Shown here: positions 10,781 through 55,792 of the stretch, in pieces
Layout of the letters: each line of letters begins with the position of its first letter
Numbering within the stretch: position 1 is the first letter of the stretch
Assembly: GCA_020072805.1 (NCBI GenBank)
Contig: JAIQGC010000024.1
Location: 47,577-111,576 of the forward strand
Length of the DNA: 64,000 nt
DNA from: Terriglobia bacterium
GTDB lineage: Bacteria > Acidobacteriota > Terriglobia > Acidiferrales > UBA7541
Direction: 5' to 3'
Notes under the pieces: generated by a model
Told to the model about the DNA's origin: nothing
The model's database searches: none
The model's input: only the letters and a program-made list of their open reading frames with translations
Position numbers and translations under genes: made by a program

Positions 10781-10789
10781 GAGGAGAGG

Positions 10790-12415: not shown

Positions 12416-12440
12416 CCCGCCCTCTGAAGAGGGCGGCTAC
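12416..12440 (-). repeat. REP-like hairpin; GTAG overlaps stop codon of the adjacent ligase gene
   Basis: gcccgccctctgaagagggcggctac; CTA 12437-12439 is the TAG stop of the minus-strand CDS. Confidence 0.65.
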
Positions 12441-17018: not shown

Positions 17019-17432
17019 TCAGGAGAGCTTGTCTTTCACTTCTCGCGGGATGGGAGCGCCTTTGAGGCGCTGGGAACCGTCTTCGGGGCGGACGACCCAG
17101 ACGCGCTTTTCGAAAACTTCTACGGCGAGGACGTCGCCGCGGAGCAGGCGGTGGTGAACTGTGAAGCTGCTCGTGCCCCATTCGGAGATGGAGGATTCCA
17201 CGACGACGGTTTCGGTATAGGCGCTGGGGACGAGAAATTGGGCGTTGATGCTGACCATGGGAATGCCGGCGATGCCGTAGCGTTTCATCATTTCGGGCTT
17301 GCTGAGGCCGACGGAAGTGAACAGGCGGAAGGTGCAGGAATCGAAGTATTCGAAATAGCGCGGGAAATAGACGATGCCCTCGGGGTCGCAATCGCCCCAT
17401 TCGATCATGATTTCCTTGCGGCTGGTCAGCAT
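17019..17432 (-). CDS. 4-hydroxybenzoyl-CoA thioesterase family acyl-CoA thioesterase
   Basis: IEWGDCDPEGIVYFPRYFEYFD, the 4HBT active-site signature. Confidence 0.8.
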   Translation of the reverse strand: MLTSRKEIMIEWGDCDPEGIVYFPRYFEYFDSCTFRLFTSVGLSKPEMMKRYGIAGIPMVSINAQFLVPSAYTETVVVESSISEWGTSSFTVHHRLLRGDVLAVEVFEKRVWVVRPEDGSQRLKGAPIPREVKDKLS

Positions 17433-17450: not shown

Positions 17451-18695
17451 TTAACTCGGATTTTCCAGGAGCATGGCGATGCCCTGTCCACCGCCGATGC
17501 AGGCGGAGGCAATGCCGTAACGGAGATTCGCGCGGCGGAGTTCGCGGGAGACGGTGACGGCGAGGCGGATGCCCGTGGCGGCCAGGGGATGGCCGATGGC
17601 GATGGCGCCGCCATTGACGTTGAGCTTATTGGGGTCGAGCTGGAGTTCGCGCTCGACGCTCATGACTTGCGCGGCGAAGGCTTCGTTGATTTCGAAGCGG
17701 TCGATTTTGTCGAGGGCCAGTCCGGCGCCATCGAGAACTTTGCGAATGGCGGGAGCGGGGCCAATGGCCATGATTTCCGGGGGAACGCCGACGACGGCGA
17801 CGGCAGCGACGCGGGCCAGCGGCTTGGCGGAGCGGGACTTGGCGTAAGCGCCGGAAGCGACGAGCGCGGCGGATGCGCCGTCCACGATGGCCGAGCTGTT
17901 ACCGCCGGTCTGCACGCCGCCGAAAGCGGGAGGAATCTTGGCGAGAACCTCGAAGGGCGAGGGGCGGATGTGGCTATCGGCGGAGAGAGCATCGATTCCG
18001 CGGGGGATGCGAATGCCGCGGGGATGATAGCCTTCGAGGACAAACTGTTCGGAGACGACGGGAACGATTTCGCCGGCAAGGAAGGAGGATTTCTGGGCTG
18101 CGATAGCGCGGTTGAAGCTGCGCTCGGCGAAGCGGTCGGCGTCTTCACGGGTAATTTTGTATTTGATGGCGGCCTTTTCGGCGGTGCCGCCCATGGTTAG
18201 GCCCGGAGCGGTGTCCATCAGGGCTTCCCAGAGGAAATCCTTGAATTCGACCTGGCCCAGGCGGAAGCCGGAGCGGTGGGTGAAGGCGGCGATGGGGTTG
18301 CGGCTCATGGATTCGGCGCCGACGCAGAGGCCCAGATCAATTTTTTTGAGGGTGATGGCGTCGGCGGCCTGGCTGATGGCTTCGATACCCGTGCCGCAGA
18401 CGCGCTGCACGAGGTGCGCGGGACGGTCCACGGGAACACCGGAATAGAGGCCGATATGGCGCGGGAGAACGTAGGCGTCGAAGCTGGCCTGGGCCACGCT
18501 GCCGGCGATGACCGAACCGACGTCGGCGGGAGAGATGCCGGTGCGTTCGAAAACGGCGCGGGCGGCCTTGATGCCGAGGTCGATGGGCGATACCAGCCCG
18601 AGCGGACCGTTGTAATCGATGAAGGGCGTGCGCACGCCGTCCAGCAGCCAGATGTCCTCGAAGGATTGAAAGAGACCGCCGCTTCCTTTTGTCAT
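17451..18695 (-). CDS. Thiolase / acetyl-CoA acyltransferase
   Basis: QRVCGTGIEAI, NVNGGAIAIGHPLAATG, SACIGGGQGIAMLLE motifs. Confidence 0.9.
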   Translation of the reverse strand: MTKGSGGLFQSFEDIWLLDGVRTPFIDYNGPLGLVSPIDLGIKAARAVFERTGISPADVGSVIAGSVAQASFDAYVLPRHIGLYSGVPVDRPAHLVQRVCGTGIEAISQAADAITLKKIDLGLCVGAESMSRNPIAAFTHRSGFRLGQVEFKDFLWEALMDTAPGLTMGGTAEKAAIKYKITREDADRFAERSFNRAIAAQKSSFLAGEIVPVVSEQFVLEGYHPRGIRIPRGIDALSADSHIRPSPFEVLAKIPPAFGGVQTGGNSSAIVDGASAALVASGAYAKSRSAKPLARVAAVAVVGVPPEIMAIGPAPAIRKVLDGAGLALDKIDRFEINEAFAAQVMSVERELQLDPNKLNVNGGAIAIGHPLAATGIRLAVTVSRELRRANLRYGIASACIGGGQGIAMLLENPS

Positions 18696-18877: not shown

Positions 18878-19903
18878 TCAATAGGCGCGCGGAATTGCTT
18901 CCAGCACCTTCAGCATGCGCTTCATGTCCGTGGCGGGAGGAATATCGCCCGCGGTAGTGAGAATGGCCGGACGGAGATCGGAAACGGTGCGGCGGAAGGA
19001 CGCGCGGAAGGAGTCCAGCGCGGCATCGTCCATTTCGAAGGCGGCGAGGGGCAAGCCGAGAGCCAGCGCGGCGCCAGCGGGAATTTTTCCCGAGAGTTCC
19101 GCCGAGGAGTCATGGAGCGGGGGGAAGAGCAGGCAGTCCCACTGGCGCTGGAAAATCAAGGAAGCGTTGCCGGCGAAAGAGGCAGCGTCGGAGAGTTGCA
19201 GAACCGGGAGAGCCTGGTAGAAGCGGATGACATTGAAGGCGGGTTCGAGCGCGGAGGCCCAGGAGGCGCAGAGATCTTCGGAAAGAGCGGGAAGCAGCGG
19301 CTCGTGGATAAAGATGAGATTGGCGCCGGCTTCGACGAAGGAGCGGGCCAGCTGGGTGAGAAGCGCGGCGGCGAGTTCGAGAGCGGAATCGGGAGGAGTC
19401 TGCGTGCGCCAGGCGTCGCCGCGGTCGAGTTGCGCGAGGCGCGCGGCGAGCGTGAAGGGCCCGGAGAGGCCGGCCATGAGGATGGAATCGTCGCGGGTCA
19501 TGGCATTCATGCGGCGGAGAACGTCAGCGGCGACGGCGGCGCGCCCGCTCTTGACGGCTTCTTCGGGGGAGCGCAGATCATCGGGAAGCTCGCCGGGCGT
19601 GGCGCCGTGGGGCCAGGAGATGGAAGGAGGCTGATTCTCCGCGCCCCACTGGAGCGAGGCGCCGAGGGCTTCGAGTTCGAGCGTGGGATCGAAATAGCAA
19701 GAAAAGCCGTCGGTGCGCAGAGGGCCGCGCAACTGGCGCTGCGCGCTGCAAATTTTCGTGGGATTGGAGAGAAACGCGGGAAGCGGCTGGCTTTCCACGC
19801 GCGCGCCGGGAGAAAAAACGAGCGGCAAGAACAGAGGCCGCGGCGGGGCCGTGCCTTGCAACAGCCCCTTAAGCATCTGCCGGGGAGTGGAATTCTCCGC
19901 CAT
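18878..19903 (-). CDS. Uroporphyrinogen decarboxylase-fold family protein
   Basis: TPRQMLKGLLQGTAPPRPLFLPLVFSPGARVE N-terminus and overall UROD-like pattern; 4 nt from the HyuB-like gene. Confidence 0.6.
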   Translation of the reverse strand: MAENSTPRQMLKGLLQGTAPPRPLFLPLVFSPGARVESQPLPAFLSNPTKICSAQRQLRGPLRTDGFSCYFDPTLELEALGASLQWGAENQPPSISWPHGATPGELPDDLRSPEEAVKSGRAAVAADVLRRMNAMTRDDSILMAGLSGPFTLAARLAQLDRGDAWRTQTPPDSALELAAALLTQLARSFVEAGANLIFIHEPLLPALSEDLCASWASALEPAFNVIRFYQALPVLQLSDAASFAGNASLIFQRQWDCLLFPPLHDSSAELSGKIPAGAALALGLPLAAFEMDDAALDSFRASFRRTVSDLRPAILTTAGDIPPATDMKRMLKVLEAIPRAY

Positions 19904-19906
19904 GGG

Positions 19907-21967
19907 TTATGGCCGGAAAACGGGTCCGGTGGATTTGGCGTCGGGCCAGGTGCCGTAATAGATCAGCGCTTCCTTGGGGGGAGACTTCTTGTTCCATTCC
20001 TTCTCGAACTCGCCGTAGGATTTGCCGCGAGCCAGGCGGGATTTCCGTTCCGCCGCACGTTGCTGATTTGTTTTTTCGATATCCACTTTTCTGCGCTCGT
20101 GGTCGTAGGCGATTTTATAGATTTCCGTCGCGGTCCAATCGGAGATGAGGCACTTCTTCAGGTCTTCCATCACGAACTCGGGGTCGCGTTCGAGGGGGTC
20201 GCCGTAACCGGGGCCGCCGCCGCTGAAGCCAAAGAGCAGATCGCCTTCCTGATAGACCTTGGGGGTGCGGGCGATGAGTTCGTAAGTCCAGTCGCCATGC
20301 ACCGTGGCTTTTTCCATGATCTCGCGGTGGTCCATGGTGAGTTCGGGATTGCCCTCCTTCATCTGCTTGAGGAGGTCGGTCTTTTTGACGCTGATGCCGG
20401 GAATGGGCGAAGAGGCGTAGCCGCCGAACATGGGCTGGCCGAGAGGCACCTTGCTGCCGTTGCCCATGCACAGGGAAACGATGTCGGGAACTTTGTGCAC
20501 CATCCATTGCTGGACGGCGCCGGAGCCGCCGCGGTGAATGCCGTGGCCGCAGGAGTCGCGCCAGTGCTGCGAGAGCATGACGGAGAGCGGGAGTTCGCTT
20601 TCGACCTGCTCGGAATCGGGAGCGCGGCCGAAGGCGCACCAGGCGAAGCCGTAGGAGTCCATGCCGTCGGTGGCGGCGCGGCCTCCCTGCCCCTGGGTGT
20701 TGAGGGAGAAGGAAAGCACGTCGGAGATGGCCAGCTTCCACTGGGAAACGCCGGCGCAGATCTGCGCGGTGTGCTGGCTGCCGGGAGAAGCGGCCACCTG
20801 CTGCCAGAGGCTGGCGCTCGAGAAGGTCATTTTGGCGAAAGCGTTGTGCGTGGCGCAGCGGGCCTGCATGCCGATATAGACGCAGCAACTGGTGGCGGCA
20901 AGCTTATCGGGGTTGAGGATGATGCCTTCGGGAAATTCGAAATCGATGGGAGCGAAGGTGGAGCTGCAGATGGGCAGGTCGTGGAAAAAATACTCGTACA
21001 TGAAATTGGCGATATGCCCAACGACGGCCTGGGTGTGCACGTTGTAGGAGGAGGGATTCTCGGGAGAGGTGCCCTCGAAATTGAAGACCAGGCGGCCGTC
21101 TTTCTTGGTGAGCGTAAGGAAGCAAGCGCGGACGAGCGCCGGGGTCCAGCCGATGGCGTCGTTGAAAACAACGGAGCGAAATTTTCCGTCGGGAAGGTGC
21201 TTGACCTTTTCGCGGGCGCCGGCTTCGGCGGTGTCCAGCATCTTGCGCATGAGGCCGATGACGAAATCCTCGCCGCGCTTCTTGACCAGTTCGAGGATGC
21301 GCACGCGAACGCGGTCGGCGGTGGTGCAGCGGGCGCGCAGGTCGGAGATGAACATGGCCGGGGCGCGCAGGCCGTAGACGGAATACATTTCCAAAAAGTC
21401 GTTGCGGATTTTGAAATTTTCGCCGATTTTGATGGGGGGCATGTTGAGCCCTTCCTCGAATCGGGATTTGGCGCTGACGGGCATGCCGCCGGGTTCGACC
21501 GCGCCGGTTTCGGTGGTGTGCAGAGCGGCGGTGGCCCAGGCGATGAGCCTGCCTTCGTGGAAAACGGGGATGAGGGCGACCTGGTCGGGATTGTGGATGC
21601 CGCCATAGAGGGCATCATTGGTGTACCAGATGTCGCCGTCGTGGATGCCGGGATTTTCGGCGTAATACTTCTGGATGAATTTGATGACGATGGGCTGAAT
21701 GATGGCGTGGAGATAGGTGCCGCAAGAGGCGTTGATGAGGTCGCCGTTGGCGGTGAAGATGGCCACCATGGAGTCGCCGGAAACCCCGAAATAGCTGCGC
21801 GAGGAGCGCACGAAGATTTCCATGGCCTCGTCGAGGATGTCGTTGGTGATCTGCGCGCCGATTTCGTAGTCGCCCTGAGCGAGCTTGGCGGCGCATTCGA
21901 TTTCATGGGGCGTGGGCGGGGACGGCTTGAGCCAAGCCAGTTTTTCCGCCAGTGTGGGTATGGGCAT
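19907..21967 (-). CDS. apc4-like: HyuB/acetone-acetophenone carboxylase-type large subunit
   Basis: DGDIWYTNDALYGGIHNPDQVALIPVFHEGRLIAWATAALH; GFSGGGPGYGDPLERDPE. Confidence 0.85.
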   Translation of the reverse strand: MPIPTLAEKLAWLKPSPPTPHEIECAAKLAQGDYEIGAQITNDILDEAMEIFVRSSRSYFGVSGDSMVAIFTANGDLINASCGTYLHAIIQPIVIKFIQKYYAENPGIHDGDIWYTNDALYGGIHNPDQVALIPVFHEGRLIAWATAALHTTETGAVEPGGMPVSAKSRFEEGLNMPPIKIGENFKIRNDFLEMYSVYGLRAPAMFISDLRARCTTADRVRVRILELVKKRGEDFVIGLMRKMLDTAEAGAREKVKHLPDGKFRSVVFNDAIGWTPALVRACFLTLTKKDGRLVFNFEGTSPENPSSYNVHTQAVVGHIANFMYEYFFHDLPICSSTFAPIDFEFPEGIILNPDKLAATSCCVYIGMQARCATHNAFAKMTFSSASLWQQVAASPGSQHTAQICAGVSQWKLAISDVLSFSLNTQGQGGRAATDGMDSYGFAWCAFGRAPDSEQVESELPLSVMLSQHWRDSCGHGIHRGGSGAVQQWMVHKVPDIVSLCMGNGSKVPLGQPMFGGYASSPIPGISVKKTDLLKQMKEGNPELTMDHREIMEKATVHGDWTYELIARTPKVYQEGDLLFGFSGGGPGYGDPLERDPEFVMEDLKKCLISDWTATEIYKIAYDHERRKVDIEKTNQQRAAERKSRLARGKSYGEFEKEWNKKSPPKEALIYYGTWPDAKSTGPVFRP

Positions 21968-22001
21968 GTTTCTCCTCGCCTTGCAGCGTGCAGTCTGACG
22001 C

Positions 22002-24125
22002 TTACTTCTTCTCCAGAATTCCCAGGCCGCGCTGGTCCACGGAAAATTTCATGGACGGAGGCACGACCAGAGTGGTGTATTCGCCTTCGACGATGGCCGG
22101 GCCTTCGATGAGGTTGCCGGGGCGCAGCGATTCGTAGGCAAAGAGCGGAGTGGGAACGTAGGCCTTGGTTTCGGCCCAATAGACGGGGCGTTCGCCCTTG
22201 CGCGCCGCGGAGGCATCCGGCCCTTCGAGCGGCATAATCGGCATTTCGATTTTCTTGGTCGGGACGATGGCTTTGAGAATAAAGCTCTCGATGAACACGC
22301 CGCCTTCGGGATTGACCACGTACGGGCTGAAGGCCTCGCTGAACTCTTTTTCGAACGCGGCGCAAATGGCGCGAACGTCTTCGGCGGACTTCAGGGCGAG
22401 GCGCGGGGAGAGCGTGCGCTTTACGTGGAACTGCCCGCCATAGAGCATGTCCAGTTCGAGAACGAAGCCGGCGGCGTCGGGACTGAGGCCGTCGGCGACG
22501 AGGTCGCGGCGGGCCTGCTCGATGAGCATTTCGACGGAGCGGTTGAAGGAAGAAAAATCGTCGGTGAGTTTCTGAGTGCCCGGTTCGAGCAAAGTAATTT
22601 TCTTCGAGTTTTCATAGACGTGCATGATGTCCATGGTCGAAGAGCCGAAGGCGCAGAAGACGGGAGAAAAATTGAAGATGACGGCTTTGGGAATATCGGC
22701 CATGTAGCCTTCCACGTGGGTGGCCCCGGCGCCGCCGCCGACGAAGAGAATAAACTCCTCGGGGCTGTAACCGCGCAGATGGACTTCCTTCATGATGGCG
22801 GAGGCCATATTGCCGTTGACGATTTTGCGGATAATCAGCGCGGCCTGTTCGACCTCCATGCCCAGGGGCTTGGCGATTTTGTCGCGGATGGCCTGGACGG
22901 AGCGTTCGCGGTTGAGCTTAAGCTTGCCGCCGTAATAAAAATCGGGATTGAGGTAGCCGAGGACAACGTCGGCATCGGTGACAGTGGGTTCCGTGCCGCC
23001 CTGATTGAAGCAGGCGGGGCCGGGCATCGAGCCGGCGCTCTTGGGGCCGACCTGAACCTGATTCTGGAGAAGTTTATTGAGCCAGCCGATGGAGCCGCCG
23101 CCGGCGCCGATGGAGAGCGTCTTGATCATGGTGATGCCGACCATCCAGCGGTCGATGATGGGGCGGAAATCGTAGCTGCGCACGCTGTCCTCGACAACCA
23201 GACCGACGTCGAAGCTGGTGCCGCCCATGTCGCTCATGACCACGTTCTTGTGGCCGAGGATTTTGGCGACGTGGTGCGCGCCCATGAGGCCGGAGACGGG
23301 GCCGCTGTTGAAGGTGCGGCTGGCGGCGGTGCGGAAGACTTCGGCGATGCCGCCGGAGCTCTGGATCATTAGCAGGGGCTTGGTATAGCCGCGGTCGCGC
23401 AGCTTGTCCCACATGGCGGAAAGCTCGATCTGCATGGAGCGCTGGAGATAGGCGTCGAGAATGGCGGCCAGGGTGCGTTCGTATTCGCCGAGCTTGCCGA
23501 CGACCTGCCCGCCGAGAACGACGGGAAGGAAGCCGATGTGGAACTCCTTGTACTCGTCGCGAATGATCTCCTTGATGCGTTTTTCGTGAATGGGATTCAG
23601 GAAGCCCCACAGCAGCGAAACGACGAAGCCGCGCACGCCCTTGGCGATGAGCGAGCGCACCTTGGCGCGCACGTCCTCCTCATCGAGCGGGCGAAGGATC
23701 AGTCCGCGCGAATCCACGCGTTCCTTCACGCCCACAATGCGGTCGCGGGGAATGAGCGGGTCCGGTTTTTTCTGGATGGAGAGGTTGCGGCGTTCGGTGA
23801 CGCGCGTGCCGTCAATCCATTGCGCGCCGCGTCCGATGAGCACAACGTCTTCATGGCCTTCGGTGGTGATCAGTCCGAGCCGCGGCCCCTTTTTCTCGAT
23901 GAGGCGGTTGAGGGCGATGGTGGTGGAATAGCGGATCATGTCGATGGCGGGAAGCAACTCCTCCATCTTCAGGCCCACGGCGGCGGCGCCCTCTTCGATC
24001 ACTTTGGTGAAGCAGACGGAGAGGTCGTAGGGCGTCGTGGGAACTTTTTTGATCAGGCTTTTCCCGCGGTAGTTGAGAACGAGATCGGTAAACGTTCCGC
24101 CCACATCGATGTCGATGGAATTCAT
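22002..24125 (-). CDS. apc3-like: HyuA/acetophenone carboxylase-type ATPase subunit (second copy)
   Basis: IDVGGTFTDLVL, MSDMGGTSFDVGLV, LFVGGGAGATHVEGYM; ATGA overlap with the upstream gene. Confidence 0.85.
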   Translation of the reverse strand: MNSIDIDVGGTFTDLVLNYRGKSLIKKVPTTPYDLSVCFTKVIEEGAAAVGLKMEELLPAIDMIRYSTTIALNRLIEKKGPRLGLITTEGHEDVVLIGRGAQWIDGTRVTERRNLSIQKKPDPLIPRDRIVGVKERVDSRGLILRPLDEEDVRAKVRSLIAKGVRGFVVSLLWGFLNPIHEKRIKEIIRDEYKEFHIGFLPVVLGGQVVGKLGEYERTLAAILDAYLQRSMQIELSAMWDKLRDRGYTKPLLMIQSSGGIAEVFRTAASRTFNSGPVSGLMGAHHVAKILGHKNVVMSDMGGTSFDVGLVVEDSVRSYDFRPIIDRWMVGITMIKTLSIGAGGGSIGWLNKLLQNQVQVGPKSAGSMPGPACFNQGGTEPTVTDADVVLGYLNPDFYYGGKLKLNRERSVQAIRDKIAKPLGMEVEQAALIIRKIVNGNMASAIMKEVHLRGYSPEEFILFVGGGAGATHVEGYMADIPKAVIFNFSPVFCAFGSSTMDIMHVYENSKKITLLEPGTQKLTDDFSSFNRSVEMLIEQARRDLVADGLSPDAAGFVLELDMLYGGQFHVKRTLSPRLALKSAEDVRAICAAFEKEFSEAFSPYVVNPEGGVFIESFILKAIVPTKKIEMPIMPLEGPDASAARKGERPVYWAETKAYVPTPLFAYESLRPGNLIEGPAIVEGEYTTLVVPPSMKFSVDQRGLGILEKK

Positions 24126-24508
24126 TCAGAGACCTCGAGACGCTGCTTGCGAATTTTGTATTCCCCGCTCTGCAGCCGCTTTTTCAGGCTGTCCAGATCA
24201 ATTTCGATGTCCCAGGTGAGGGGATGTCCGGGGGGCAGATATTCGGTCTCCATCTGCACGCCGCAGCCGGGGCAATAAAACTCGACGATGCGCACCCACA
24301 GCGGGTCGGGGGAAAAGTTATATTCGCCGGAGACCAGCGGGGGATGAATCTCGCGGGGGTCGCGGTCGTGAATCAGGAGGCACCGCTTATAGTTCTCGCG
24401 GGCGGCGCCGAGTTCCTTGCCGCAGCGGTTGCAGTGCCATTTTTCCTTTTCGATGTCCAGGTCGAGATACTCGGTGACCCGGATTCGGTTTTGCTGTTCT
24501 GCCGCCAT
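24122..24508 (-). CDS. apc2-like: Small zinc-ribbon subunit, acetone carboxylase gamma-like
   Basis: WHCNRCGKELG ... FYCPGCGVQMETEYLPPGHP, two CxxC pairs; sits between two HyuA-like genes. Confidence 0.8.
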   Translation of the reverse strand: MAAEQQNRIRVTEYLDLDIEKEKWHCNRCGKELGAARENYKRCLLIHDRDPREIHPPLVSGEYNFSPDPLWVRIVEFYCPGCGVQMETEYLPPGHPLTWDIEIDLDSLKKRLQSGEYKIRKQRLEVSE

Positions 24509-24554
24509 GGTTCTCCTCGTGCGCAAAGCGCGAGACACGCTGTCCGCGCGTTTG

Positions 24555-26561
24555 CTAACTTCGGGTCAGTTTCGCGTTGCCGTGCTGGTCCATGACCAGC
24601 GTCCAGCCTTCGGGAACGAAAAATGTGCTGTTGGCGCCTTCCAAAATGGCGCAGCCTTCCACCTTGTTGCCGGGCTCCAGCTTTTCCCAGGTGTAGAGCT
24701 GGGCTTCGCCCTTCTTGCTGCCCCAGGCGACGGCGCGCTGGCCCTTGAGGGCGGCGGATGCGCTGGCGCCCCTGTCCTGTTTTTTCGCAAGGGCCGGCTT
24801 GGGCATGGGCTTCTTGATGCGCACGCGGATCAGGCCGATGGCAAAGGTTTTCTTCGCGCCACCGACGGAATCCTCCAGGGAAGTTTTGAGCGCGGCGGCG
24901 TTGGTGAAGGCCAGCGGCGAGCAGGCGAGGGTTTCGAAAGGTTTTCCCGCGCGGGAAATTTCCAGCTCCACCGAATATTCGATGCCTTGAGGTTTGATGC
25001 CTTCGCCGAGAAGGTCGCGCGTGCCTTCGGCCTTGCAGTCATGGAAAGCGTCGAAGACGCGCTGGACGCCGGCTTCGTCGAGGGCGGTGACGTGCAGGGC
25101 GCGCTCGTAGAGATGGGAGATGTCCGAAACGGACGAACCGAAGGCGCTGAAGACCGGGCCGAGGTTGAAAAAATACACTTCGCGCAGGCCGGCTTTTTCG
25201 GCGACGCCGCAGGCGATGAGGCCGCCGTTGCCGCCGTAAGCGAACAGCGCGTGCTTGGCGAAATCCTGGTGCAGTTCCTTGCCGGCCGCGGCGATCATTT
25301 CGGCAACCATTTCATAGGCGCGTTCGATGATGGCGCAGGAAACTTCCTCGGGAGTTTTCTTGAGCGGCGTGGCAACGCGCTGCTCGATGGCCTGGCGGGC
25401 CGCATCTTTGCTGATGGATTTTGCGCCGCCGAGGAAATAATCGGGATTGATCAGCCCGGCGGTGACGAAGGCGTCGGTGAGCGTCGGTTCTTCTCCGCCG
25501 AGCGTATAGCAGGCCGGGCCGGGATAGGAGCCCATGCTCTCGGGACCGAGCGTGACCGGGGAATCCTTCCCTTTTCCCTTCCCTGCCGCGGGGCGGACGA
25601 TGCTGCCGCCGCCGAGAGCAATCGAGCGCAGATAGGGCAGAGAAATTTCCACGGGAATGCCGAAGAAATCGGACGGCTTGATCTGCACCGGGGCGGAATT
25701 GCGCAGGACGCTGACCTTGGCGGTGGTGCCGCCGACGTCGAGCGCGACGACGTCCTTCACACCATAGAGGGCGGCCAGATGCGCGCTGCCGTGAATGCCC
25801 AGGATGGGGCCGGATTCGATGGTGTCAATGGCCTTGGTCTTGGCGATGCCGGAAACGCCGCCGTTGATATGGCTGACGAGGAAGGTGCCGTCGTATTTGT
25901 GCGCGTCGCGGAGATCGTCTTCGGCCTTGAAGAGCGTGGCGGCGAGAGCGCCGTGGGTATAGGCGTTGATGAGCGCGCAGTCGGTGCGGGTCATGTCGTC
26001 GTAACTTTTGGAGCTATCGCTGCCGGCGAGAACCGGAACGGAGCCGAGAAAATGGTCGGGATATTGCTGGCCGACGATTTTCTTGATGCGGATTTCCAGT
26101 TCGGGATTGCGGTGAGCGCCCTCGAAGGAGACGCAGATGCGGCGGACGCCGGTCTCGAGCAGCGAGCGCACCGCGTTCATGACTTCGGCGTCGGACGCGG
26201 CGGGGTCAATGCCAATGACGTCGCGCTCGGAAAGGATGCGGCCCATGACCACGCTCCGGGCGTCCTTGCTGTAGATATTCTTTTCGTGGCCGGGAGAGAT
26301 GAGCAGGCCGATGCGCGGCCCGCGAAGCTCGGCCAGGACGTTCGAGGTGATGGTGGTGGACCAGCGGATCAGGTCCACTTTTTCGAGGAAGAGGTCCACG
26401 TCGGAATAGCCCAGTTGCACGGCACCCTGCGTGAGGCAGTCGAACAGGCAGATGGTCAGGTCGTGGGGAGTGGTATCCACCTTGGCGCAGACAATTTTCC
26501 CGCCATCGGTGAAGATGCCGTCCGTCAGTGTACCGCCGATATCGATATCAACAGTCAGCAC
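24555..26561 (-). CDS. apc1-like: HyuA/acetophenone carboxylase-type ATPase subunit (first copy)
   Basis: VDIDIGGTLTDGIF, VALDVGGTTAKVSVL, FAYGGNGGLIACGVAEKAG. Confidence 0.85.
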   Translation of the reverse strand: MLTVDIDIGGTLTDGIFTDGGKIVCAKVDTTPHDLTICLFDCLTQGAVQLGYSDVDLFLEKVDLIRWSTTITSNVLAELRGPRIGLLISPGHEKNIYSKDARSVVMGRILSERDVIGIDPAASDAEVMNAVRSLLETGVRRICVSFEGAHRNPELEIRIKKIVGQQYPDHFLGSVPVLAGSDSSKSYDDMTRTDCALINAYTHGALAATLFKAEDDLRDAHKYDGTFLVSHINGGVSGIAKTKAIDTIESGPILGIHGSAHLAALYGVKDVVALDVGGTTAKVSVLRNSAPVQIKPSDFFGIPVEISLPYLRSIALGGGSIVRPAAGKGKGKDSPVTLGPESMGSYPGPACYTLGGEEPTLTDAFVTAGLINPDYFLGGAKSISKDAARQAIEQRVATPLKKTPEEVSCAIIERAYEMVAEMIAAAGKELHQDFAKHALFAYGGNGGLIACGVAEKAGLREVYFFNLGPVFSAFGSSVSDISHLYERALHVTALDEAGVQRVFDAFHDCKAEGTRDLLGEGIKPQGIEYSVELEISRAGKPFETLACSPLAFTNAAALKTSLEDSVGGAKKTFAIGLIRVRIKKPMPKPALAKKQDRGASASAALKGQRAVAWGSKKGEAQLYTWEKLEPGNKVEGCAILEGANSTFFVPEGWTLVMDQHGNAKLTRS

Positions 26562-26580: not shown

Positions 26581-27249
26581 CTATCTTACCGCTTTCAAAA
26601 ACTCTTGCGAAGAAACCGTCCACCCAAAGAAACTTTCCACATTGAACACGGTGGCTTCCTGCAGCGCGGGCGGCCCGGCCTGCATGGCGGCGTCGGTGAT
26701 GAGCACGGGCCAGTAGTCCAGGAAATAGCCGTGGCGCAGCGTGGATTCCACGCAGACGTTGGTGGCGATGCCGGTCATGAAGAGGTACTGGATGCCGCGC
26801 ATGCGCAACTGGGAATCGAGCGTGGTGCCCTGAAAACCGCTGTAGCGCGTCTTGATGATGACGATGTCTTGCGGCTGGGGCTTCAGTTCGTCCACGATCT
26901 CAAAATCCCAGGTGCCTTCGGTGAGCAGCTTGCCCTTGAGTTCGGGGCGGCAGTTCATCAGGTGCATGGCCAGTTCTTTGTGGAAATTGGGAGAACCCGG
27001 ACCTCCGCTGTTGCTCAGGTCGGGCTTGTAGCCCATCTGCAGATGCACAACGGGCATGGAGGCGCGCCGCGCGGCCTCGGCGATGCCGCGGATGGCGCTG
27101 ATGACCTGAGCGGCGCCGGAGATGTCCACGCCGGCGATATCCAGCATGCCGCCCTTGGTGGCGAAGGCGTTCTGCATGTCCACGATGACCACGGCGGCCT
27201 TTTTCAGGTCGATTTCCACCGGGGCGGGCTTGGCATTAAGAACAGGCAT
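26581..27249 (-). CDS. Isochorismatase-family cysteine hydrolase
   Basis: AAVVIVDMQNAFATKGG; KTRYSGFQGT; MTGIATNVCVESTLRHG catalytic Cys motif. Confidence 0.85.
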   Translation of the reverse strand: MPVLNAKPAPVEIDLKKAAVVIVDMQNAFATKGGMLDIAGVDISGAAQVISAIRGIAEAARRASMPVVHLQMGYKPDLSNSGGPGSPNFHKELAMHLMNCRPELKGKLLTEGTWDFEIVDELKPQPQDIVIIKTRYSGFQGTTLDSQLRMRGIQYLFMTGIATNVCVESTLRHGYFLDYWPVLITDAAMQAGPPALQEATVFNVESFFGWTVSSQEFLKAVR

Positions 27250-27427: not shown

Positions 27428-28759
27428 CTATCCTTCATATAGCTTCTTGATCAACTGCCCCTTCATCTCGAATCTCGGCAGCGTGCCTGCGGGAACCAGC
27501 TGCACGGAGGCGGGCACGGTCAGCATGCCTTTAATCTTATCTTCCAGTTGTTTTTTCAGGACGGGCTGGTCGGCCGAGCCATTGGCGCATTCGGCGACAA
27601 CTTTGAGGGGCGGCTTCACCCCGGGACCGGGCTGATCGAGCAGAATCTGTATCTCGCCGGTCACCTGCGGATAGAAGCTAGAAACGATATCGCGGACGGC
27701 GGAGGGGAAGACGTTGACGCCCAGGACGATGAGCATGTCATCGGTGCGGCCGACGCAGCGCATCTTGTAGCTGGTGCGGCCGCAGTTGCAGGAGGTGGCC
27801 AGGATGGAGACGCGGTCGCGAGTGCGGAAGCGCAGCAGCGGGACGCATTCGCGTTCGAGAGAAGTGTAGACCAGTTCGCCGGAAACGCCCGACTCGATGG
27901 GAAGAACCGCGCCGGTCTCGGGGTCAATGATTTCCGTATAAACGTACTCCTGGCCGCAGTAGTGCATCCCGGTCTGCTCCGGGCATTCGCCGAAGATGAT
28001 CGGACCCATGTCGGCATTGCCGAGTCCCTCGGTGACGCGCGCGCCCCACTCTTCGGTGAGCTTGGCGCGAATTGAGGGGATGCCGGCGCCGGGTTCCGCT
28101 CCGCAGACCAGTTTCTTAATGCCGAAATCGCGCGGGTTCATCTTGGCTTCCCGGCGGATGTATTCGGCGAGATAGATGGCGTAAGAAGGCGTGCAGTGGA
28201 TGACGTTGGCGCCCAACGAGCGGGCGTAGAGGACCACCTTTTCGGACGCGCCGGTGCCCAGGGGCACGAAGGTTGCGCCAATGAGCTCCATGGCGTCCTT
28301 CGAAGGCAGGCCGCCGACGAACATGGTAAGCCCTGCGGCGTGAATAACGATATCCGAGGGGCGAATGCCCTGGGTATAGAAGGAGCGCGCGGTCATGTTG
28401 GTCCAGCACTGCGCGTCCTTGCGGGTGACGCCGACGAAACTGGGCCGTCCGGTGGTGCCGGTCGAGGAATGCAGGCGGACGACGTCCACCATGTCGGCGG
28501 CCATGTGGCGGCCGAGAGGCGGGCTGGCCAATTGGCTTTCGCGCAACTCTTCCTTGGAAGTGAAAGGAAAGCGGGCCAAGTCGTCGAGCGAGCGGAAATC
28601 GGCACGGCGAAGGCCGGCGGCGGCGAATTTGTCCTGGTAGAAGAGCGAGCGGGCGAAAAGGTAGTCGAGTTGAGTGGAAAGTTTCTGCACCTGCAACTGG
28701 CGCAGGGCGGCGGGGCTCATCGTTTCTATTTCGGGGTCCAGGTATTGCTCGGTTCTCAT
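27428..28759 (-). CDS. PaaK-like phenylacetate-CoA ligase family protein
   Basis: LHSSTGTTGRPSFVGVT; CNCGRTSYKMRCVGRTDDMLIVLGVNVFPSAV. Confidence 0.85.
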   Translation of the reverse strand: MRTEQYLDPEIETMSPAALRQLQVQKLSTQLDYLFARSLFYQDKFAAAGLRRADFRSLDDLARFPFTSKEELRESQLASPPLGRHMAADMVDVVRLHSSTGTTGRPSFVGVTRKDAQCWTNMTARSFYTQGIRPSDIVIHAAGLTMFVGGLPSKDAMELIGATFVPLGTGASEKVVLYARSLGANVIHCTPSYAIYLAEYIRREAKMNPRDFGIKKLVCGAEPGAGIPSIRAKLTEEWGARVTEGLGNADMGPIIFGECPEQTGMHYCGQEYVYTEIIDPETGAVLPIESGVSGELVYTSLERECVPLLRFRTRDRVSILATSCNCGRTSYKMRCVGRTDDMLIVLGVNVFPSAVRDIVSSFYPQVTGEIQILLDQPGPGVKPPLKVVAECANGSADQPVLKKQLEDKIKGMLTVPASVQLVPAGTLPRFEMKGQLIKKLYEG

Positions 28760-28921: not shown

Positions 28922-31900
28922 TTAGAAGGAGTACTTGAGCGAGATCTGGAGCTGGCGCGGATTGAACATGGTGCGCGCCGAACCAAAGCTCGGGTTGGGG
29001 ACCGGGGGGCCGGCCACCGGGCAGCTGAAAACTGTGATTTGCTGTATGGCAATCGAGGTAGCGTCCTTATAGCTGACGGGAACCTGGCCGTTGCAGAAGC
29101 CGTAGGTTCCGTAAACAGAGGTGACTTCGTTCACGTTGGGCCGGTTGAGGGCGTCGAAGACGTCCAGGGCCAGATCGATCCTCTGCTTCTCACGGAACTT
29201 AAAGTGCTGCGTGAGGCGCAGGTCAACCGTCTTGAACTTGTCGCCCCAGTAGGTGTTGCGGGCGGAAAGACCGACGCGATCGGTGACCGGGTTGGTGTCA
29301 TTGTTGGCGTCAAAGCCCACGAACATGGTGAAGGGGCGGGCGCCTTGCAGGGTGACGATGCCGCTCAACTCCGTATTGCGCAGGAAGGTCTCCTTCGGTC
29401 CGGTGGCGGTAAAGTTGGCCACGAAGCGGTGACGCACGTCCTGGTTGGAGTTTCCGCGTTCGGCGGCCCGGTTATAGAGATCCTGAGGGGTGCTGACGAA
29501 GGTGGTGAACGTGCCGTCATCCAGGGTCTTGGAGTAGGTGTAGTTGGCGTTCCAGCTCAGATTCTGGCCAATCCGCTGCTTCGCGGTAAAGGTCACACCG
29601 TGATAGACGCTGTTCCCGCTGTTGTCGGTGTAATAGAGCAGACCGACAGGGATGAGCACGCTTTGGAAGTAGCTCTTGCCGGCCGGGAAATCCGGCGGCG
29701 GAGCGGCGTAGTTGCCAAACGCATTGGAACCGCACTCATACCAGCCGGTGGTCATGGAAGGCGTCACACCGCCGGTGGAGTTTGACGGGCAGACGTTCAA
29801 GTTTTCCGCGCGCACCTGATGGTGAGCGGAAACGAAGAGATAGCCAATGTTGAGCACCAGGCCATGTCCGATTTCGCGGTCAATTTCAAAACTGCCCTGC
29901 TCGGCGTAGGGCATCTTGCTGGCGGTTTCAACCGTGCCGTCACCCACGGTGGAGAATTCCGGTTTGGTGACGTCGGTGACTAGTTGAACGGGAGTATAGA
30001 GGCCATTGATGAGAAGATTCGCGGCCGTGTTCGCCGGTATCCAGCCGAGGCTCGGAACGAAGGGCTGCTGGTTGAGCGCGTAGGTGGCGTTCGGCCCGCC
30101 CTGGCGGATGCCCGGCAGGTCATAGTTGGTTCCGGAACAGTTCGCAGTGGGCACCACGCAGACGAACGTCGTGGGGCGCTGCGGCCGGGTGACGAAGAAG
30201 AACGACGTGTTATACCGGTCGCTGAAGAGACCGAAGCCGGCGCGCACAACGGTGTGCTTGTCCGGCGAATAGGCGAAGCCGACGCGCGGCTGGAACGCCT
30301 TGTAGTAGTGATTGACGGTATCGCTGATGCCCGGCTCGAAATCCCAGCGCACCCCGTAATTCACTGTGAATTTGGAGCTGACGCGCCACTGGTCCTGCGC
30401 GTAGAAGCCCAGGTAGCCGTGCTTCATGTCCGAGAAATAATTCGGAGTTTGGCTGTCCTGATAGGCCTTATCCCAATTCAAAGGCAGGGAAAATGCCGGA
30501 GCCGTGGCTGCGGTGCCATCCACCACCGAGGTGTCCGCCGAACCCAGCGGAGAGGGCCAGAAGACGATCGGGGTGCCGTTCATGAACCCAGGAAGCGGAC
30601 AGGTGTCACCCGGGTTGGCCGTATATCCCAAAGCGGGCATCGGAGATCCCCTTTGGATATTGATGAAATTGGCGAAGTCCACCAGGCAGTCAACGCTGGG
30701 CAGAACGATGCGCATCGGAGAGAAACCCGGCCAGATGATGTGGTCGTCGACACGGTTATAGTCGGCGCCAAACTTGGCTACGTGCGCTCCCTTAACCCAC
30801 GAAACGTTGTCCGAAAGCTGGATGCGGCTCTCGTAGGTGGCGTCGAATACGCCGAAGTTATGCCCCATCAGCAGCGAGTTGGGGATATCCAGACCGGGCT
30901 GGCCCGTGACGCCGGGGAAAGTGGAGTGGCGCCGGCCATACTGAACGAGCACCGAATTCATCAGATTGGGAGAAAATTGCGTATTGAGCGTGCCCACCAG
31001 GGACTGATCGCGCAGGAAGTTATCGTGCGCGCTGCTGGGAGCGGCAATGCCTCCTCCGTCCAGCGTGTCGCCCATGAGCACGTTCAGGCTGCGGCCATCC
31101 TCGATGCTGTAGCGCAGGGCCAGACGGTTGTTCTTGTTGATTTCGTGGTCCAGCTTGATGAAGCCCTTGTCGGTATCCTGGGTCTTCAGGTTGCCGGTGA
31201 GCTCGTCGAATTGACCCGGCGCGCCGCCATACAGCATTGCCTTCGCCGTATTGATCAACGCCAGATTGGCCATCAGCACCGGGGACTGCACCGGCGCTTC
31301 CGCGCGGCGCTGTCCTTCGTAGTTCATAAAGAAGAACGTCTTATCCTGCTTGATGGCGCCGCCCAAGGTGCCGCCAAACTGGTTCTGCCGGAACGTCTTC
31401 GGCAGCGGGTCAGGCAGAAGCATGGGGCGCGCGTTCATGGCGCTGTTTTCCAGGTAATCGTAGAGTGAGCCGTGCCGGTCGTTGGTCCCGGACTTGGTGA
31501 TGATGTTGACGATGCCGCCCATGGCCCGGCCCTGTTCCGCCGAGAAGCCGTTGTTGACCACGCGGAATTCGCTGACCGCCTCCTGCGAAGGAGTGGCGCG
31601 CTGCGAACCGGTGGCGGAGTTGATGGTGTCCGCTCCGTCCACGGTAACCAGGTTGCTCAGGTCGCGCATGCCGCCAAACGAGATGCGCGTAACTTCCGTC
31701 TCGGTGATGGTGGACTGCAGCGAGGTGCGGCCGGTGGTGACGCCGGGGGTGAGCAGGGCGAAGTCGGTGAAGAGGCGGCCGCTGATGGGCAGCGAGCCGA
31801 TCTGCTTCGAGTCAATCACCTGGCTGACTTCCGTACGCGTGGGCTCGACGGGCGGGGTCTCGGTGCTGACTTCGACTTTTTCGCCGACCGCGGCGACCTT

Positions 31901-32236
31901 GAGATCGATGTCAATGGTGGCCACCTGACCGACGCTCAAGACGATTCCGGTGTGCGTGGACTTGGCGAAACCGGTGGCATCCACGACCAACTCGTAATGA
32001 GCCGGCGACAGATTGGGCAGAACGTAATAGCCCGTATCCGTGGAAACGGCCGAATAGGTGCGGCCAGTATCCACGTCGCGCAGGGTGACCGTGGCCTTGG
32101 CCACGGAACCACCGCTGGCGTCACGGATTGTGCCGTTCAACTGCGCGCCGCTGCTGCCCTGCGCGTAAGCGGCAGGCATGCCAGCTACCAAGAAGACTAT
32201 CGCGAAAACGACTAAGAGCATTCCCCGTAGTTTCAT
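28922..32236 (-). CDS. TonB-dependent receptor, Oar-like with carboxypeptidase-regulatory N-domain
   Basis: Signal peptide; GTIRDASGGSVAKATVTLRDVDTGRTYSAVSTDTGYYVLPNLSPAHYEL; plug FGGMRDLSNLVTVDGADT; C-terminal LQISLKYSF. Confidence 0.9.
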   Translation of the reverse strand: MKLRGMLLVVFAIVFLVAGMPAAYAQGSSGAQLNGTIRDASGGSVAKATVTLRDVDTGRTYSAVSTDTGYYVLPNLSPAHYELVVDATGFAKSTHTGIVLSVGQVATIDIDLKVAAVGEKVEVSTETPPVEPTRTEVSQVIDSKQIGSLPISGRLFTDFALLTPGVTTGRTSLQSTITETEVTRISFGGMRDLSNLVTVDGADTINSATGSQRATPSQEAVSEFRVVNNGFSAEQGRAMGGIVNIITKSGTNDRHGSLYDYLENSAMNARPMLLPDPLPKTFRQNQFGGTLGGAIKQDKTFFFMNYEGQRRAEAPVQSPVLMANLALINTAKAMLYGGAPGQFDELTGNLKTQDTDKGFIKLDHEINKNNRLALRYSIEDGRSLNVLMGDTLDGGGIAAPSSAHDNFLRDQSLVGTLNTQFSPNLMNSVLVQYGRRHSTFPGVTGQPGLDIPNSLLMGHNFGVFDATYESRIQLSDNVSWVKGAHVAKFGADYNRVDDHIIWPGFSPMRIVLPSVDCLVDFANFINIQRGSPMPALGYTANPGDTCPLPGFMNGTPIVFWPSPLGSADTSVVDGTAATAPAFSLPLNWDKAYQDSQTPNYFSDMKHGYLGFYAQDQWRVSSKFTVNYGVRWDFEPGISDTVNHYYKAFQPRVGFAYSPDKHTVVRAGFGLFSDRYNTSFFFVTRPQRPTTFVCVVPTANCSGTNYDLPGIRQGGPNATYALNQQPFVPSLGWIPANTAANLLINGLYTPVQLVTDVTKPEFSTVGDGTVETASKMPYAEQGSFEIDREIGHGLVLNIGYLFVSAHHQVRAENLNVCPSNSTGGVTPSMTTGWYECGSNAFGNYAAPPPDFPAGKSYFQSVLIPVGLLYYTDNSGNSVYHGVTFTAKQRIGQNLSWNANYTYSKTLDDGTFTTFVSTPQDLYNRAAERGNSNQDVRHRFVANFTATGPKETFLRNTELSGIVTLQGARPFTMFVGFDANNDTNPVTDRVGLSARNTYWGDKFKTVDLRLTQHFKFREKQRIDLALDVFDALNRPNVNEVTSVYGTYGFCNGQVPVSYKDATSIAIQQITVFSCPVAGPPVPNPSFGSARTMFNPRQLQISLKYSF

Positions 32237-32505: not shown

Positions 32506-34710
32506 ATGGATCGAAGGACAATTTCCGTCATCGCGGTGGGACTGGCAATGGCAGTGGCAGGGCTTTACGCACCGAGTTCCGCTTTCGCGCAGGGCGCGAA
32601 GAGCGCCGGCGCGAAAAAGCGCGCGAGCGCGGTCAAAGCCGCCGCGGTGAATGGAAAGCGCATCGCCCAGGCCGACCAGGAGCCGGGAAACTGGATGAGC
32701 CAGGGGCGCACCTACAGCGAGCAGCGCTTCAGCCCGCTGAAGCAGATCAATGAGAAAAACATCGGGGAACTGGGGCTGGCGTGGTCCTACGACCTGGACA
32801 CGCATCGCGGGCAGGAGGCCACGCCGCTGGTGGTGGATGGAACGATGTATTTTTCGACGGCGTGGAGCAAGGTGGTGGCCCTGGATGCGGCCAGCGGAAA
32901 ACTACGCTGGGAGTATGACCCCAAAGTGCCGGGGGAATGGGCCATCAACGCCTGCTGCGACGTGGTCAACCGCGGCGTGGCCGTCTGGGAAGGAAAAGTT
33001 TTCGTGGGCACGCTGGACGGGCGGCTGGTGGCGCTGGATGCGGCCACGGGCAAGCTGCTCTGGGAAACGCTGACGATTGATCGCAACTGGCGCTATACGA
33101 TCACCGGAGCGCCGCGCGTGGTCAAGGGCAAGGTGCTGATCGGCAACGGCGGAGCGGAAATGGGCGTGCGCGGGTATGTCTCGGCTTACGATGCCGCGAC
33201 GGGCAAGATGGCGTGGCGTTTCTACACCGTGCCGGGTGATCCCTCGAAGCCCTTCGAGAGCCCGGCAATGGAAAAGGCCGCTAAAACCTGGACGGGCGAA
33301 TGGTGGAAGTACGGGGCAGGCGGAACGGCATGGGACGCGATTGTGTACGACCCGGACCTCGATCTGGTGTATATCGGCACCGGGAACGGCTCGCCGTGGG
33401 ACCGCCGGGTGCGCAGCCCGCAGGGCGGCGACAATCTCTACCTCAGCTCCATCGTGGCCCTGAATCCGGATACCGGCGAATACGTCTGGCACTACCAGGA
33501 AACGCCGGGAGAGAGCTGGGACTTCACCGCCTGCCAGCCCATTATCATTGCCGACCTCAAGCTGGATGGGCGGACGAGGCGCGTTCTGCTGCATGCGCCG
33601 AAGAACGGGTTCTTCTACGTGCTGGACGCCAAAAGCGGCGAGCTGATTTCGGCCACGGCGTACACGAAGACCACCTGGGCCACGGGAGTGGACCTGAAGA
33701 CGGGGCGGCCAATAGAAACGCCCGTGGGGCGCTACCCCGGCACCAGCCCCGAGCCCACGCAGCCGGGCCCGCTGGGCGGGCACAACTGGCAGTCCATGTC
33801 CTATAGCCCGCTCACCGGCCTCGTCTACATTCCCGTACACGAATCGGGTTTTCTGTACAAGTCCGACCCGGAGTTCACGCCCAAGAAGCTGGCATTCAAC
33901 ACCGCCACGGACGGCGTAGCCGCGGGCATGCCGCAGGATCCCAAAATCAAGAAAGCGATTCTGGAGGGGATCAAGGGGCGGCTGGTGGCCTGGGACCCGG
34001 TGCAGCAGAAGAAAGTGTGGGACGTGGAACGGCCCGGACCGTGGAACGGAGGAATCCTGTCCACGGCGGGAAACCTGGTCTTTGAAGGAACGGCGTCGGG
34101 AAATTTTGAAGCCTACCGCGCGAATAGCGGCGAGAAGCTCTGGTCGGCGCCGGCGCAGACCGGAATCATCGCCGCGCCCATCAGCTATACGGTGAAGGGC
34201 GAGCAGTACGTAGCGGTGCTGGCGGGTTTGGGCGGAGCCTTTCCGCCGAACACCGGCGAGGTGTCGCACAAGCGCGGGCTGATGCTTCCGCTGATCACCG
34301 GCGAGGTGTCGCACAAGTCCGGGCTGATGCACAACGTGAGCCGCATGCTGGTGTTCAAGCTGAACGGCAAGGCCACGCTTCCGCCGCGCAAGGTGGTCGA
34401 GCCGGTGCTGAATCCCCCGCCCTCGACGGCCAGCGCGGAGGAGATTCACAAGGGCGAAAAACTGTTCCAACGCTACTGCTCGGCCTGCCATGGAGACGTC
34501 GCGGTGGGGGGCGGAGTCCTGCCGGACCTGCGCTATTCGGGGACGCTGACGGATGACACCTTCTACAGCGTGGTTCTCGACGGAATCCTGAAACAGGCAG
34601 GGATGATCGCCTTCGGCAAGGAACTCTCGAAGGAAGATGCCACGCTCATCCGCGAGTACGTGATCTATCGGGCGAACCAGAGCGTGGAGGAGAGCAAACA
34701 GAAGAATTAG
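32506..34710 (+). CDS. PQQ-dependent quinohemoprotein alcohol dehydrogenase with C-terminal cytochrome c
   Basis: NDAxx-type PQQ propeller, [11 protein letters not shown] vicinal Cys pair, [39 protein letters not shown] heme domain. Confidence 0.9.
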
Positions 34711-41641: not shown

Positions 41642-42349
41642 ATGTCGAACATCGCCGGCTACCGCAGACCCATGGCCGGGACGCAGCCCAATCACCTGCA
41701 CCCTCCCTACGCCTCCAGCGTGGCACGCTCTCCCCGCCAGCCGCTCGTCTACCTGCCACACACCCTGTCCGAGGTGACCGGCCCGATCGTCGGGCCAGAG
41801 CGCGTGGACGTAAAAGCCTTTGACCTCACCAAGCAGCACAAAGGGGAGCCCCTCGGCGAGCGCATCGTGGTCAGCGGGCGGGTGATTGACGAAAACGGCC
41901 GCCCCGTGCCGCACACTCTGGTGGAAATTTGGCAGGCCAATTCCGCCGGGCGCTACCTGCACAAAGTAGACCAGCACAACGCTCCGCTGGACCCGAACTT
42001 CACAGGCTGCGGGCATACCCTGACCGACAGCGAAGGCCGCTACCGCTTCGTCAGCATCCGCCCCGGCGAATATCCCTGGAAAAATCACTACAACGCCTGG
42101 CGCCCCGCGCACATCCATTTTTCGCTCTTCGGCCCGGCCTTCGCCACGCGTCTGGTCACGCAGATGTATTTCCAGGGCGATCCGCTCATCCCCTACGATC
42201 CCATCTTCAACTGCACCAGCGACGAAAAGGCCCGCAACCGGCTGATCTCCCAGTTCGACTGGGAATCCACGATTCCCGAGCAGGCCCTCGGCTACAAGTT
42301 CGACATCATCCTAAACGGACGCGACTCCACACCCTGGGAGAATAAATAA
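41642..42349 (+). CDS. pcaH: Protocatechuate 3,4-dioxygenase beta subunit
   Basis: GRVIDENGRPVPHTLVEIWQANSAGRYLHKVDQHNAPLDPNFTGCGHTLTDSEGRYRFVSIRPGEYPW; RPAHIHFSLFG. Confidence 0.95.
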   Translation: MSNIAGYRRPMAGTQPNHLHPPYASSVARSPRQPLVYLPHTLSEVTGPIVGPERVDVKAFDLTKQHKGEPLGERIVVSGRVIDENGRPVPHTLVEIWQANSAGRYLHKVDQHNAPLDPNFTGCGHTLTDSEGRYRFVSIRPGEYPWKNHYNAWRPAHIHFSLFGPAFATRLVTQMYFQGDPLIPYDPIFNCTSDEKARNRLISQFDWESTIPEQALGYKFDIILNGRDSTPWENK

Positions 42350-42350
42350 G

Positions 42351-42911: not shown

Positions 42912-42930
42912 GAGTGTTTACACTCTCTGC

Positions 42931-44304: not shown

Positions 44305-44305
44305 A

Positions 44306-55742: not shown

Positions 55743-55792
55743 ATCTCTCTTCTCGTCAGCGGAACATACGAGAGCTAAGCTACAATGAAGCC

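Follow-up and report, generated by a model that had tools for sequence, protein, structure and literature searches.

Known carboxylases and the Terriglobia locus

The acetophenone carboxylase (Apc) ApcABCDE of Aromatoleum aromaticum EbN1 (core structure 5l9w; ApcE structure 9fou) is the only Apc enzyme for which the paper defining the family (PMC5214803) describes the biochemistry. We have analysed a related operon in a stretch of 64,000 nucleotides (the window) from a soil acidobacterium, Terriglobia bacterium GCA_020072805.1 (contig JAIQGC010000024.1, forward strand, 47,577-111,576). The two systems have in common the five subunits, the gene order, the adenosine triphosphate (ATP) motifs, the Zn cysteines, the residues of the bicarbonate site and a nearby coenzyme A (CoA) ligase gene. 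They differ at one position of the substrate pocket, which is Gln344 in Aromatoleum and Lys in the window, and in their destination, since the Aromatoleum enzyme leads to benzoyl-CoA whereas the island of the window points to 4-hydroxybenzoate and protocatechuate 3,4-cleavage. Moreover, the ligase gene of the window is located upstream, a 4HBT thioesterase gene, a RutB-like gene and a TonB receptor gene are additional, and ApcA is only 43% identical. Judged from its sequence, the operon almost certainly encodes a true member of the Apc family. It is also rather probable that this member is an ATP-dependent, biotin-independent carboxylase whose likely substrate is a 4-hydroxylated aryl methyl ketone, on a route to 4-hydroxybenzoate and protocatechuate.

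The same logic, from a hydroxyacetophenone through a beta-keto acid to a benzoate, is found in the aerobic Hpe pathway of Rhodococcus GD02 (HpeHI, HpeCBA, HpeD; PMC9618137) and with XccBCA of Aromatoleum. HpeCBA differs from Apc in that it is biotin-dependent and non-homologous, and in that the phenol is phosphorylated first; in the window, CoA ligation and thiolysis would take the place of the beta-elimination of Hpe. The authors of the Hpe study knew no other aerobic aromatic pathway with a carboxylation (PMC9618137), yet Aromatoleum uses Apc aerobically (PMC4729919). Among the window genes annotated by Pfam or NCBIfam, the rest of the genome not having been searched, no biotin-dependent three-subunit carboxylase and no kinase resembling HpeHI could be recognised. 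To our knowledge, carboxylation of hydroxylated aryl ketones has so far been described only for unrelated biotin enzymes.

Two other groups share part of the architecture. The acetone carboxylase AcxABC (5m45, 5svb) also carboxylates a ketone with HyuA-like, HyuB-like and small Zn subunits, but it contains one HyuA chain and no ApcE, displays 32-33% identity to ApcC and occupies a separate branch of the tree. The ATP-dependent hydantoinases, 5-oxoprolinases and caprolactamases (7hk5, 6yra, CapAB) have the HyuA and HyuB folds in common with Apc, but lack the gamma, alpha' and epsilon subunits and also branch separately.

Operon structure and family membership

The genes of the operon, with protein lengths in amino acids (aa), are the following:

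24555..26561, minus strand: apcA, 668 aa, GTG start; alpha' subunit, an ASKHA ATPase of the HyuA-like kind, proposed to act as bicarbonate kinase
24122..24508, minus strand: apcB, 128 aa; small Zn subunit (structural name gamma) with four Cys
22002..24125, minus strand: apcC, 707 aa; alpha subunit, an ASKHA ATPase of the HyuA-like kind, proposed to act as ketone kinase
19907..21967, minus strand: apcD, 686 aa; beta subunit, HyuB-like
18878..19903, minus strand: apcE; epsilon subunit with the UROD/MtaA fold

The original prediction had described a four-subunit module composed of two HyuA-like genes, a small gene with two CxxC motifs between them and a HyuB-like gene, all on one strand. These four genes are indeed present on the minus strand, but a fifth gene, apcE, had been overlooked; from its sequence the module is predicted to be a complete apcABCDE with five subunits. 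The intergenic gaps are short throughout, with apcE starting 3 base pairs (bp) downstream of apcD, and direct reading of the sequence also bears out the predicted ATGA overlap of apcB and apcC (24125-24122). An alternative GTG start upstream of apcB, at 24538, would give a protein of 138 aa. The operon is flanked upstream by the genes of the RutB-like protein, the PaaK-like ligase and the TonB-type receptor, and downstream by those of the thiolase and the 4HBT thioesterase. A scan of the region for promoters and terminators gave counts no higher than in shuffled sequences; a hairpin with a T-rich tail lies directly past the last gene (16992-16975) and is only suggestive of a terminator.

For all four core subunits, the top sequence relative in the PDB is the core of the Aromatoleum enzyme, 5l9w. 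The E-values and identities are 2.8e-161 and 43% for ApcA (5l9w_b), 1.4e-47 and 59% for ApcB (5l9w_C), 1.5e-298 and 61% for ApcC (5l9w_B), and 2.8e-254 and 52% for ApcD (5l9w_A). The identity of ApcC to N-methylhydantoinase, 5-oxoprolinase and acetone carboxylase is only 32-34%. ApcA matches its NCBIfam model with an E-value of 2e-195, and ApcB matches Pfam Acetone_carb_G (5.6e-35). The product of 18878-19903 matches the NCBIfam ApcE model (1.1e-23) as well as Pfam URO-D; its AlphaFold model has a predicted local distance difference test score of 90.9, and the top Foldseek match of this model is ApcE 9fou (7e-17). With Pfam E-values between 1e-35 and 1e-77 and a recurring gene order, it is confirmed that the module is far beyond chance.

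The features recommended for annotation of Apc are the gene order, a fingerprint motif, the gamma cysteines and the ATP motifs (PMC5214803). The order alpha', gamma, alpha, beta, epsilon is found in the window and in its relatives. The fingerprint R/KERiDsxG is present in ApcC as KERVDSRG at position 134 (alpha) and is absent from ApcA (alpha'). The three motifs of the ATP site are present in both HyuA-like chains, at positions 7, 299 and 365 of ApcC and 7, 275 and 344 of ApcA. The two CxxC pairs of ApcB, C26/C29 and C79/C82 (numbered from 24508), are Cys in 35/35 aligned sequences.

The phylogeny proposed with the original prediction, against Apc, acetone carboxylase, hydantoinase and oxoprolinase clades, was obtained by maximum likelihood from 73 HyuA-like chains, using a quick method with support from the Shimodaira-Hasegawa-like approximate likelihood ratio test only. 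ApcC and ApcA were included in separate Apc clades, each with a support of 100 and each containing the matching Aromatoleum chain, and the window rows were placed identically in two runs. The paralogue row L003, read in a wrong frame, forms an artefactual long branch that we ignored. All references for N-methylhydantoinase, 5-oxoprolinase and acetone carboxylase are localized outside both clades; the grouping with N-methylhydantoinases that had been named beforehand as the contrary outcome did not occur. Instead of a two-gene hydAB within the Hyd branch, we observe five genes whose chains fall outside the Hyd references. The tree and the subunit set lead us to reject a hydantoinase or oxoprolinase identity, and the earlier preference for Apc over a hydantoinase/oxoprolinase pair is supported by the gene order, the four gamma Cys, the fingerprint, the ATP motifs and the tree.

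Pathway and candidate substrate

The genes that surround the operon are the following:

17019..17432, minus strand: thioesterase of the 4HBT fold (Pfam 4HBT_2, 1.3e-13); proposed 4-hydroxybenzoyl-CoA hydrolase
17451..18695, minus strand: beta-ketothiolase, BktB-like (TIGR01930, 371 bits for a cut-off of 240.55); proposed 4-hydroxybenzoylacetyl-CoA thiolase
26581..27249, minus strand: RutB-like cysteine hydrolase, about 52% identical to Escherichia coli RutB
27428..28759, minus strand: PaaK-like aryl-CoA ligase (TIGR02155, 2e-84, under the curated cut-off); proposed aroylacetate-CoA ligase
28922..32236, minus strand: TonB-dependent outer-membrane receptor of the Acidobacterial type (Pfam OMP_b-brl_4, 2.6e-98); proposed uptake function
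32506..34710, plus strand: pyrroloquinoline quinone (PQQ) alcohol dehydrogenase with a cytochrome c domain (TIGR03075, 661 bits for a cut-off of 480); proposed to convert a 1-arylethanol into the ketone
41642..45085, plus strand: pcaH, pcaG, pcaB and pcaD (pcaH, pcaB and pcaD above the cut-offs of TIGR02422, TIGR02426 and TIGR02427, respectively; pcaG by Pfam Dioxygenase_C)
45973..46371, plus strand: pcaC, 4-carboxymuconolactone decarboxylase (TIGR02425, 193 bits for a cut-off of 155.7)

The ligase, thiolase, thioesterase and protocatechuate genes were already named in the original prediction and are all located here. Several of them recur in related islands: the thiolase gene adjoins the operon of the window as well as that of seven related islands, the receptor gene is kept upstream in most related islands, and the PQQ alcohol dehydrogenase is conserved in G303, G305, G347 and L031. 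The genes pcaHGBD and pcaC are on the same island in the window, G303 and G305, with a partial set in other relatives. Some relatives carry at the operon an unrelated aryl-CoA ligase (PRK12582 family) instead of the PaaK-like one, the thiolase and the thioesterase being retained in two of them.

Evidence on the product comes from related genomes. Five of them (G303, G305, G348, G336 and G350) have pobA on the strand of the thioesterase gene, 33-133 bp downstream of it, and the PobA of G303 scores above the equivalog cut-off for 4-hydroxybenzoate 3-monooxygenase. In the sister islands of G350, G336 and G338, a cupin has 2,4'-dihydroxyacetophenone dioxygenase 5bpx as best PDB match (2.5e-26); this dioxygenase makes 4-hydroxybenzoate from a hydroxyacetophenone. 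Because pobA follows the thioesterase gene and homologues of the dioxygenase are present in relatives, 4-hydroxybenzoate is the probable product, and the substrate is probably a 4-hydroxyaryl methyl ketone, most likely 4'-hydroxyacetophenone or a close relative. The acetophenone-type lignin monomer proposed earlier thus keeps its ketone type and is narrowed to this group. Homologues of the dioxygenase are found near the Apc operons of L010 (16842), L059 (17901), L062 (5707) and L022 (2173), one of them (56%) being in a Burkholderiales locus outside the clade of the window.

From the gene content, family membership, motifs and neighbourhood, we infer which ketone is used, what reactions it undergoes and in which order, as follows. 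By analogy with the Aromatoleum enzyme, ApcC (alpha) would phosphorylate the enol of the ketone and ApcA (alpha') the bicarbonate, ApcD and the Zn protein ApcB would form the core, and ApcE (epsilon) would let both activated substrates react, with two ATP used per carboxylation. The PaaK-like ligase would activate the aroylacetate with CoA, the thiolase would cleave the aroylacetyl-CoA into acetyl-CoA and 4-hydroxybenzoyl-CoA, and the thioesterase would release 4-hydroxybenzoate. In the relatives, 4-hydroxybenzoate would be converted by PobA and then by PcaHGBDC. The earlier sequence of carboxylation, CoA ligation, thiolysis, hydrolysis and entry into the protocatechuate route gains from the position of pobA in the five relatives, the exchange of ligases and the dioxygenase homologues, but the step just before protocatechuate is without a recognised enzyme in the window strain. 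There, as the original prediction noted for the window, pobA is missing: the genome (99.8% complete) contains no PobA homologue at E<=1e-5 by family and protein searches, and VanA was not found in it either. A PcaI-type CoA-transferase is encoded elsewhere in this genome. The window strain may use a substrate with a second oxygen, hand 4-hydroxybenzoate on, or possess an unrecognised hydroxylase.

The first of these options can be framed as a reading of its own, in which two oxygen substituents are already present on the ketone of the window strain (either 3',4'-dihydroxyacetophenone or acetovanillone) and this ketone yields protocatechuate or vanillate directly, so that PobA is unneeded. It would agree with a genome that has pcaHGBDC without pobA or VanA, and genes for methylenetetrahydrofolate reductase (MTHFR) and/or a methionine-synthase-like protein, in the islands of G305, G338 and G402 and in the RutB island of G334, could handle a methyl group. 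However, no O-demethylase was found, and C54, a methyltransferase-like gene found together with the methyl-handling genes in sister islands, is absent from the window genome. The substrate is also likely shared with G303 and G305, which belong to the same genus, bear pobA, have ApcD and ApcC 86-90% identical to those of the window and possess the same pocket residues. We consider this reading unlikely, though slightly less so than the one discussed below for unsubstituted acetophenone. MTHFR, the methionine-synthase-like protein and C54 (464 aa, unassigned, no Pfam match) occur together or in part near the Apc operon or the RutB-like gene in L057/L072 (G305), L010 (G338), L087, L092 and L094; it is possible that this set handles methyl groups.

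Concerning the active sites, the proposed bicarbonate-site residues of ApcA, Glu248, Asp274 and Lys281, are invariant in 31/31 sequences. In the proposed ketone pocket of ApcC, six of the seven positions are the same as in Aromatoleum. The seventh, Gln344 in Aromatoleum, is Lys335 in the window and Lys in 13/13 members of its clade; six further Acidobacterial genomes have Lys as well, bringing the clade to 19/19. Outside the clade, Gln is conserved in 20/21 sequences and replaced by Glu in one. Only 11 of about 700 positions separate both ApcC groups as cleanly. Lys335 may be regarded as a lead on substrate choice, short of proof, because the clade is a single lineage. This fixed difference in the pocket offers a clean test of what determines substrate choice in the Apc family.

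The same residues bear on the possibility that the enzyme is a plain acetophenone carboxylase, converting unsubstituted acetophenone (from ethylbenzene or 1-phenylethanol) to benzoyl-CoA, from which the 4HBT enzyme would release benzoate. The similarity is highest to the acetophenone enzyme, six of the seven pocket residues agree, Aromatoleum also uses its Apc under aerobic conditions (PMC4729919), and the PQQ alcohol dehydrogenase is a conceivable source of the ketone. Nevertheless, the island genes of the relatives (pobA, pcaHGBDC, the dihydroxyacetophenone dioxygenase) indicate 4-hydroxybenzoate and protocatechuate rather than benzoate, no gene specific to benzoyl-CoA or benzoate was recognised in the window, and all 19 clade members differ at the pocket residue. 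This possibility seems to us improbable.

Several observations weigh against a carboxylase for hydroxylated ketones. NCBIfam sets its equivalog cut-offs for acetophenone carboxylase, and all subunits score below them (ApcD 902 for 1500, ApcC 1076 for 1500, ApcB 188 for 250, ApcA 651 for 1250 and ApcE 84 for 450), although such scores would also fit a divergent branch. The Aromatoleum enzyme was reported as highly specific for acetophenone, 4'-hydroxyacetophenone being degraded there by a different pathway (PMC4729919), and for this reason a hydroxy-specific Apc would be a real departure. The replacement of Gln by Lys is fixed in a single lineage and could be explained by shared ancestry alone. 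Of the Acidobacterial islands seen, about 15 to 19, just five have pobA directly adjacent. Without PobA and VanA, 4-hydroxybenzoate would be a dead end in the window strain unless another hydroxylase exists. Finally, the RutB-like gene has no place in the proposed scheme, nor in any known aryl ketone pathway.

This RutB-like protein has an intact triad (Asp24/Lys133/Cys166) and an altered loop (QMGYKP for QNGWDE). In a sample of 101 genomes, copies with at least 66% identity are present in 9/9 genomes with Apc and in 2/92 others (Fisher p ~3e-11 on genome counts, uncorrected for relatedness). The gene is not beside every Apc operon, some islands having no adjacent copy. Two genomes have the gene but no Apc at the cut-off used. 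There its neighbour is an aryl-CoA ligase gene, accompanied in one of them by the thioesterase gene; the RutB-like gene travels with the aryl-CoA route. The gene could otherwise suggest an ATP-dependent amidohydrolase of the hydantoinase, oxoprolinase or lactamase type followed by the RutB-like hydrolase as amidase, given the superfamily common to the HyuA and HyuB chains and the resemblance to RutB with its triad. Hydantoinases contain neither two HyuA chains nor a four-Cys gamma subunit nor ApcE, and the tree separates them; the ligase neighbours in the genomes without Apc weaken the gene as a sign of a ureide or pyrimidine pathway. Such an amidohydrolase is extremely improbable.

On the evolution of the hydroxyketone carboxylase that we favour, our proposal is tentative and falls a little short of even chances: through the Gln-to-Lys replacement, the Acidobacterial Apc branch would have evolved into a direct carboxylase of hydroxylated aryl methyl ketones that requires neither prior phenol phosphorylation nor biotin and that feeds aerobic ring cleavage. 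It would be a second, independent solution for hydroxyacetophenone, in one Acidobacterial family of soil and peat. If true, this would be a biotin-free and direct route for ketones derived from lignin and plants, whereas the known hydroxyacetophenone carboxylase needs a prior phosphorylation, and it would point to a catabolic function of Acidobacteria that have been known mostly through metagenomes.

Distribution and other genes of the window

The Apc operon was rarely encountered across the phylum sample (1/297 genomes) but was found in 17/89 genomes of the family of the window, distributed in 6/13 genera. A scan of 84,980 species genomes with a pattern of short conserved peptides detected 28 loci in several phyla, which is a lower bound. 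The gene order recurs in Acidobacteriota, Myxococcota/'Deltaproteobacteria', Chloroflexota, Actinomycetota, Dormibacterota and Pseudomonadota. A plasmid search returned distant homologues only (best 42%). No paper on Apc in Acidobacteria or on an Apc acting on hydroxyacetophenone was found, subscription journals and preprints being outside the coverage. The Apc family as such is known; the novelty is its five-subunit, biotin-free branch in Acidobacteriota, an aerobic variant wired to the protocatechuate route and most likely serving 4-hydroxyaryl methyl ketones. G305 contains a second, divergent Apc-like operon (L064, G305:C2:550400-570300) with identities of 33% (HyuA), 55% (Zn subunit), 44% (ApcC) and 36% (ApcD), in which no ApcE was recognised; it is possibly another type of ketone carboxylase.

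Just beyond the operon and on the opposite strand, the window encodes a benzoylformate decarboxylase above the NCBIfam cut-off (15300-16898) and a GMC oxidoreductase preceded by a small protein (10226-12364). A second PaaK-like ligase is located at 12437-13765. The segment 34852-37276 contains the E1 beta and E1 alpha genes of a 2-oxoacid dehydrogenase type and a stand-alone lipoyl-domain protein of 130 aa, with no acyltransferase domain seen; G303, G305 and G312 have this set conserved on their islands, and the E1 genes are present in G347 too. An IS200-like (Y1) transposase-family gene (45239-45763) is inserted between pcaD and pcaC. Beside kdpA and kdpB, KdpD is apparently split (54618-57253): its sensor domain, together with Usp, is read from the minus strand, and the plus strand encodes a separate histidine kinase that carries DUF4118.

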